39,182 nt of DNA. Origin: Nanobdellati archaeon (GTDB lineage Archaea > Nanobdellota > Nanobdellia > Woesearchaeales > GCA-2686295). A model generated the notes under the pieces. The model was not told the DNA's origin. It saw only the letters and a list, made by a program, of their open reading frames with translations, and searched no databases. Within the stretch, counting starts at the first letter, position 1, and each line of letters opens with the position of its first letter. Made by a program: the position numbers and the translations under genes. The stretch lies in assembly GCA_014384375.1 (NCBI GenBank), contig JACNFY010000027.1:1-39182 (forward strand), written 5' to 3'. Shown here one piece after another: positions 6,352-32,759 of the stretch.

Positions 6352-6398
6352 TAGAACAGGTAATGAAAACTAACATATAAAACTTATTGTTTTTGTAA

Positions 6399-6515
6399 GC
6401 CTCCGGAGGGACTTGCACCCCCGATCTTCTGCTTGCTCGAAAACAAGGTTTTCGAGTTTCAAAAACCCTGTTTTTGTTTACGAGGCAGATGCATTAGCTA
6501 CTATGCTACGGAGGC
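6399..6515 (-). tRNA. tRNA-Thr(CGU) with a 45-nt intron
   Basis: Read on the minus strand, the acceptor stem is GCCTCCG/CGGAGGC and the anticodon stem TCTGC/GCAGA. After splicing the loop is CTCGTAA, so the anticodon is CGT. The T-arm is GGGGG-TGCAAGT-CCCTC, and U73 follows, as is usual for archaeal tRNA-Thr. CCA is not encoded. The intron (6434-6478) sits at the canonical 37/38 site. The bulge-helix-bulge is clear: CTCG pairs with CGAG, flanked by 3-nt bulges TAA and CAA. Cutting after the second bulge nucleotide yields the mature loop. Confidence 0.93.
6436..6476. repeat. Two mini-hairpins filling the tRNA-Thr intron
   Basis: CTCGAAAAC/GTTTTCGAG (6436-6456, 9-bp arms, 3-nt loop) and CAAAAAC/GTTTTTG (6460-6476, 7-bp arms, 3-nt loop) account for almost all of the 45-nt intron. 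The CGAG of the first hairpin is also needed for the bulge-helix-bulge central helix, so the two folds compete. Confidence 0.8.
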
Positions 6516-32459: not shown

Positions 32460-32552
32460 TATTTATAAACCGTTTTCTAGTTCTGAAAAATACACTGATG
32501 CGTAGCATCCCGACCAACGGGAGGATCATCCCCGTCAACGCTGATAAGGGTT
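32460..32552 (+). promoter_or_regulatory. Promoter and structured leader of tRNA-Pro
   Basis: A TATA box ATTTATAAAC (32461-32470) would start transcription near 32495, giving a leader of about 57 nt before the tRNA. The leader holds GATGC/GCATC (32497-32509, 3-nt loop) and a second stem, ACGGG/CCCGT (about 32516-32535). A small RNA co-transcribed with the tRNA is possible, but no clear class fits. Confidence 0.45.
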
Positions 32553-32706
32553 GGGGCTGTGGTGTAGCTTGGTTATCATCATAGGTTTGGGACCTATGGA
32601 CCCCGGTTCGAAACAATGGTTTCGCCCATTGACGACGAGATTCTTCCCTTCGGGCGGAGGATTTGCTTCGCAAATCGAAACCAGTGACGAAAGTCCGGGC
32701 AGCCCC
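32553..32706 (+). tRNA. tRNA-Pro(UGG) with an 81-nt intron in the T-loop
   Basis: The acceptor stem is GGGGCTG/CAGCCCC with A73 following. The anticodon stem is ATAGG/CCTAT with loop TTTGGGA, so the anticodon is TGG (32588-32590). The T-stem CCCGG (32602-32606) pairs with CCGGG (32695-32699), but 81 nt (32613-32693) interrupt the T-loop. A bulge-helix-bulge explains it: TTCG pairs with CGAA, flanked by bulges AAA and AGT. Cutting AA^A and AG^T joins the exons to TTCGAAT, a perfect 7-nt T-loop, placing the intron at 59/60. CCA is not encoded. Confidence 0.93.
32614..32676. repeat. Hairpins filling the tRNA-Pro T-loop intron
   Basis: CAATGG/CCATTG (32614-32631, 6-nt loop), CCC/GGG around TTC (32646-32654) and GATTTGC/GCAAATC (32660-32676, 7-bp arms, 3-nt loop). 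In addition GGTTTCG near the start pairs with CGAAACC near the end, closing the intron. Confidence 0.75.
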
Positions 32707-32759
32707 ATATTTTTATCCTCTAGAAAAATTTATATATCCTAATCACATATTCTTTTTTT

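Follow-up and report, generated by a model that had tools for sequence, protein, structure and literature searches.

The window, meaning the whole 39,182-nt stretch of DNA that was analysed, is contig C2 of the 1.27-Mb draft genome, in 39 contigs and 95.5% complete, of an uncultured Woesearchaeota-type archaeon. A gene for tRNA-Pro(UGG) occupies positions 32553-32706 and is completed by the discriminator A32707, exactly where the original prediction had placed it. It adjoins topA, whose product matches a Candidatus Woesearchaeota MAG at 60%; no tRNA lies directly behind topA in the one named relative examined. The acceptor stem (GGGGCTG/CAGCCCC), the T stem (CCCGG/CCGGG) and the anticodon loop TTTGGGA (UGG) are all intact. 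The T loop begins as TTCGAA, is interrupted by 81 nt and then resumes with T. The features of the locus, all on the forward (+) strand, are the following:

32462..32469 (+), TATA-like box TTTATAAA, a candidate promoter of the tRNA unit, placed by consensus
32492..32552 (+), leader element that abuts the 5′ end of the tRNA, a copy of the repeated M2 module with homologues in the same genome
32553..32612 (+), exon 1, tRNA positions 1-59, supported by the fold and by 64.0 bits with model R1, whose training set included this exon's own sequence
32607..32610 (+), 5′ strand TTCG of the central bulge-helix-bulge (BHB) helix, from the register test, the minimum free energy (MFE) fold and covariation
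32611..32613 (+), bulge AAA of the 5′ splice site, with a predicted cut after 32612, from the register test and MFE fold
32613..32693 (+), 81-nt intron at position 59/60 of the T-loop, supported by the fold, the register test and the spliced-tRNA call, with a 94% identical copy in tRNA-Glu(CUC)
32614..32624 (+), 5′ strand CAATGGTTTCG of the inner intron helix, pairing with 32676-32686 with one mismatch, from the MFE fold
32615..32638 (+), M1 module AATGGTTTCGCCCATTGACGACGA, the 5′ end common to the intron family, with 10 copies in the genome and a distribution traced in relatives
32676..32686 (+), 3′ strand CGAAACCAGTG of the inner helix, from the MFE fold and comparison with a Gln intron
32688..32691 (+), 3′ strand CGAA of the central helix, from the register test, MFE fold and covariation
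32692..32694 (+), bulge AGT of the 3′ splice site, with a predicted cut after 32693, from the register test and MFE fold
32694..32707 (+), exon 2, tRNA positions 60-73 with discriminator A32707, from the sequence and the spliced-tRNA call

The interruption is a real non-canonical tRNA intron, predicted with near certainty to be spliced. The RNAfold MFE structure of the unspliced 155-nt gene (-62.5 kcal/mol, z -3.05) contains the BHB that had been proposed at 59/60, along with the stems of the acceptor, anticodon and T arms and a variant D arm. ARAGORN finds no tRNA in the window and none in the unspliced Pro(UGG) gene, and the Rfam tRNA model gives the gene 15.2 bits, below its cut-off. Once the 81 nt are removed, which restores the loop TTCGAAT as predicted, the sequence is called tRNA-Pro(tgg) by ARAGORN, so that the gene is recognised only after splicing. 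Since both ARAGORN (in its bacterial setting) and the Rfam tRNA cut-off miss Pro(UGG), the tRNA sets of this order are probably under-annotated. The junctions carry a 4-bp central helix with a 3-nt bulge at each side, and both bulges and the TTCG/CGAA pairing of the original prediction are borne out; what it had not included is A32687, which is unpaired in the MFE fold and faces the AAA bulge. This turns the 5′ bulge into a 3x1 internal loop, a slight relaxation of the motif. A box C/D guide of the kind found in the tRNA-Trp intron was considered for 32613-32693 and rejected, as neither box C (RUGAUGA) nor box D (CUGA) is present on reading the sequence.

The pairing between exon and intron recurs across genes. 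In a register test on 32 T-loop introns from this genome and relatives in the order, exon positions 54-57 were tested for pairing, G-U included, with the intron tetranucleotide that ends two bases short of the 3′ junction. All four central pairs form in 30 of the 32 at this fixed register, against a mean of 1.2 and a maximum of 7 in 10,000 trials of random placement. At exon position 57 the base changes in step with the one it faces in the intron (G-C in 19, A-T in 11, two exceptions), giving a Fisher p of about 1e-7 to 1e-6; these p-values overstate the number of independent cases, because the intron sequences are partly related and the exon boundaries of the 32 were placed by hand so as to restore the T-loop. 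The T-loop introns of other families nevertheless have sequences without recognisable similarity. The covarying helices are TTCG-CGAA and TTCA-TGAA. Three of the four central pairs form in the introns of Lys CUU and Pro GGG, and the MFE folds of several T-loop introns lack the central helix. One gene in the covariation table, from G002 of the same genus, had been a candidate tRNA-Pro; its anticodon CTG makes it a tRNA-Gln.

The search for further non-canonical introns that the original prediction had called for was productive. Inspection located 39 tRNA genes in the genome, by model and pattern searches that are incomplete and leave about seven expected tRNAs not located, and at least 12 of them have a T-loop intron: Pro UGG and GGG, Glu CUC, Gly UCC and CCC, Ala GGC, Lys CUU, Ser UGA, CGA and GGA, Leu UAG and Gln CUG. 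Three introns each are present in Glu CUC, Ser CGA and Gln CUG. Five multi-intron genes can be spliced in silico so that ARAGORN calls the expected tRNA, with D-loop boundaries that are not unique, and the solution chosen for Leu(UAG) closely matches the uninterrupted Leu(UAG) of the congener G004. A second intact Pro(UGG) gene, which had been named, together with silence of this one, as the finding that would speak against the prediction, was sought with the model, Rfam and pattern searches and not detected in the 95.5% complete assembly; the other Pro genes are an intact Pro(CGG) (L011) and a Pro(GGG) with its own T-loop intron (L035). CCA accounts for 105 of the 8424 codons in the window. 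The window also contains a tRNA-Thr(CGU) at 6398-6515 on the minus strand, whose intron, of about 47 nt, occupies the canonical site 37/38. At 98-143 a hairpin in the 3′ part of 23S rRNA is about 44 nt longer than the archaeal Rfam consensus; the extra stretch folds as an extended hairpin with no evident BHB.

The original prediction missed that the intron belongs to a repeated and apparently mobile family. Over its full 81 nt it shares 94% identity with the T-loop intron of tRNA-Glu(CUC) in this genome. Identity is 88% with the tRNA-Gln(CUG) of G002, in an alignment of 128 nt that includes exon as well as intron, and 82% over 71 nt with the tRNA-Phe intron of G005, which has an extra insert in the first hairpin. 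The inner helix of the homologous Gln intron differs on both strands and is still paired. M1, the first 24 nt of the family, has 10 copies in the genome against none for a reversed control. Each of the six genomes of the genus has it, as do the two others of the family and three more from the order; it is absent from the other 49 of the genomes searched. Introns that begin with M1 are found in T-loops, in the D-loop of Val GAC and at 37/38 of Ser CGA, and a related start is seen in the 37/38 intron of Arg UCG. M2 lies within long T-loop introns. It also lies directly upstream of the Pro(UGG) gene of the window, of Gly GCC and of Met, and further copies surround a gene interpreted as ribosomal protein L35Ae. 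The leader copy at 32492..32552 has full or partial homologues at 79-95% identity in the same genome and pattern matches in the genus, and it aligns with the 3′ half of the T-loop introns of other tRNAs. Modules related to M1 and M2 occur in T-loop, D-loop and 37/38 introns and as leaders and trailers. When the elements were compared with known RNA families, Rfam at E<=0.5 returned nothing beyond tRNA itself and a single sub-threshold match of tmRNA, which fell on a tRNA; a viral origin was likewise rejected, as neither M1, M2 nor a conserved stretch near certain odd tRNAs (described below) has an exact match in viral contigs.

The T-loop of Pro(UGG) is uninterrupted in the congeners G003, G004 and G005, so the insertion is probably recent. 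Its D-loop has an intron in G003 and G005 and none in G004, where an element lies 3′ of the gene, with ATCTGGGCAGCCCCATAT present again behind it. Elements are bordered by direct repeats of tRNA ends, 14-26 nt long, at this G004 Pro locus and at two loci of G051, and such repeats also occur at Thr(GGU) and Glu(CUC) of the genome studied here. Weaker ones, barely above shuffled controls, are seen at its Ser(GCU) and in G008 and G048. Repeats of this kind are found at several extragenic copies of the element and not at the window intron. The elements measure 90-160 nt and contain no ORF, leaving no room for an integrase or transposase. Two routes fit the pattern: either the element inserted and the tRNA end was duplicated in the process, or an intron was lost when a spliced end was copied. 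Locus L082 of the genome studied here is a second tRNA-Ser 3′ end with a T-loop insert, downstream of an apparently intact T arm.

The original prediction had taken the intron as a hint of a splicing endonuclease with broad specificity and had suggested a search for the enzyme type. That search, with PF01974 at E<=10, returned a single match, an alpha-type EndA of about 205 aa whose best match is the catalytic subunit of Nanoarchaeum equitans. PF01974 matches are present in 58 of the 60 genomes searched, nearly all in single copy, with EndA open frames of about 160-260 aa in the order. No gene for a beta subunit or a three-unit fusion was found by the PF01974 search of the 95.5% complete genome. 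A beta subunit could lie within the missing 4.5% of the assembly; the EndA found is similar enough to the beta chain of N. equitans (E 4e-14) that the family search would probably have shown one. The specificity loops CSL and ASL, identified from the text of PMC12397907 and by their place in the alignment, are absent from this EndA in phmmer alignments with 2cv8 and 4fz2: it has neither the S. tokodaii insertion with SKPKS nor the GQYGTYK of ARMAN-2. The gene content is that expected of an alpha4 EndA, a type described as confined to the canonical BHB and of narrow specificity (PMC4033280, PMC6379350). With a single alpha EndA that lacks CSL and ASL, and given this literature, gene content does not support the broad-specificity hint. 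A KP dipeptide between the catalytic Tyr and His of EndA is common in the order; a role for it is speculation. The ligase RtcB is encoded in the genome (E 1.6e-173).

It is very probable that the 81 nt are a spliced T-loop intron in the sole Pro(UGG) gene found, a copy of a mobile family removed by the alpha-type EndA. A pre-tRNA-Pro(UGG) would be made with its T-arm lengthened by the intron, and the T stem, the TTCG/CGAA helix and the inner helix would together form the BHB. The single EndA, presumably a homotetramer, would make its two cuts 3′ of A59 and 3′ of the G in the AGT bulge, and RtcB would ligate the exons into a tRNA reading CCA. The intron would be a copy of a short, structured, non-coding element spread among the tRNA genes of the genus, and would persist because EndA removes it. 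The anatomy, the spliced cloverleaf, the single Pro(UGG) gene, EndA and RtcB, the homologous copies and the absence in congeners are all read from sequence; from them we infer transcription, cutting, ligation and alpha4 assembly, and the copies presumably spread by movement, at the DNA or the RNA level, and not by some other copying process. Against cutting by an alpha4 enzyme stand the unpaired base facing the 5′ bulge and the greater deviations of other introns (Lys CUU, Pro GGG), motifs that a strict alpha4 enzyme might cut poorly. A bolder version is plausible at somewhat less than even weight: the short non-coding family would target tRNA D- and T-loops and bring its own half of the BHB, and a plain alpha4 EndA would splice it out. 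If true, it would be an archaeal, tRNA-specific counterpart of eukaryotic introners that works without specificity loops.

A specific route within this main explanation, and one that does not exclude it, is a non-autonomous integrative or transposable element that enters T- and D-loops and duplicates the tRNA end, the introns being insertions with one copy of the duplicated end left and rescued by EndA. The tRNA-end repeats at several loci favour it, as does the precedent of Caldiarchaeum, where introns were gained together with tRNA fragments through a mobile element (PMC3293823); the size of the elements, the lack of copies in viral contigs, the weakness of some repeats and the alternative of loss through a copied spliced 3′ end leave it possible and rather doubtful. 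Descent from an old inherited intron, with the likeness among Glu, Gln and Phe due to concerted evolution by gene conversion of T-arms, is unlikely. All four close copies (Pro, Glu, Gln, Phe) do sit at 59/60 between identical flanks, GGTTCRAA and TCC, and other families of the order also have Pro(UGG) genes with a T-loop intron; yet these introns are mostly short and not recognisably related to the window intron, three congeners have an empty site, and M1 and M2 also lie at D-loop and 37/38 positions and outside genes. That the gene is a pseudogene broken by a repeat, with another tRNA reading CCA, is very improbable, for although the repeat family does occur outside tRNAs, every stem is intact, splicing gives a complete cloverleaf with the junction TTCGAATC, the intron pairs with the exon through the BHB, with covariation across genes, no other Pro(UGG) was detected, and the intact Pro(CGG) is unable to read CCA by standard decoding.

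The main explanation, a mobile-family intron spliced by EndA, has precedents in part. Position 59/60 is on the published list of non-canonical archaeal tRNA introns (PMC4090602), with which the present case shares its position, the BHB at the junction, the restored T-loop and the occurrence of several introns per gene elsewhere in the genome. It differs in its Woesearchaeota-type host, its 81 nt with an extended inner helix and the one unpaired base opposite the 5′ bulge. In Thermoproteales, similar introns in different tRNAs were taken as large-scale intron transposition (Fujishima et al. 2010, as relayed in PMC4090602 and PMC4033280), by a mechanism described as open (PMC4090602). Highly similar introns in different tRNA species, by which transposed introns are recognised, are found here as well, near-identical across isoacceptors and positions; the lineage is in contrast unrelated, its EndA is alpha-only, and related modules serve as leaders and trailers and lie beside duplicated tRNA ends. 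The tRNA-Thr(GGU) locus of Caldiarchaeum subterraneum is alike in having a tRNA fragment near an intron-bearing tRNA and a gain within a short time, whereas its insert is of 1.8 kb with a recombinase gene (PMC3293823), against 90-160 nt here. Elements of that size are too small for the integrase gene that is the hallmark of SSV/pNOB8-type elements, and none is present. T-loop introns, the non-canonical position and intron spread are already known in archaea; the lineage, the alpha-only enzyme and the modules common to introns, leaders and trailers are new. In a literature search of a limited collection, Woesearchaeota appeared together with tRNA introns in a single paper, on group I introns.

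Intron-rich tRNA sets have been tied to the specificity loops of EndA, with which they are thought to co-evolve (PMC6379350, PMC12397907), and the present genome would either be an exception to this tie or call for another explanation. The sole detected Pro tRNA gene reading CCA offers a natural case for the study of archaeal tRNA intron movement. Since members of one genus carry this intron family in different tRNAs, have empty sites and also show copies outside genes, strain sampling can test in which direction and by which route it moved.

Seven tRNA-like genes of the genome (L025, L027, L028, L029, L030, L085 and L110) are odd in combining a serine-type long variable arm and G73 with T-loop inserts and anticodon loops that read non-serine (CTTATGA three times, TTGATAA, TTCAGAT, TTGACAC and TTGAAGG). 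All seemingly have a shorter degenerate tRNA copy 5′, and several lie behind a conserved stretch of the form ..TGACGAGAA..GCACTGGACA..TATA... They match no Rfam family and no viral contig, and the neighbours of three of them look like housekeeping genes. In G042:C34 (L174) a copy of M1 adjoins several ACTGGACA repeats near the conserved stretch found before the odd serine-type tRNAs, an arrangement that may link the M1 family with the repeats of these tRNAs.
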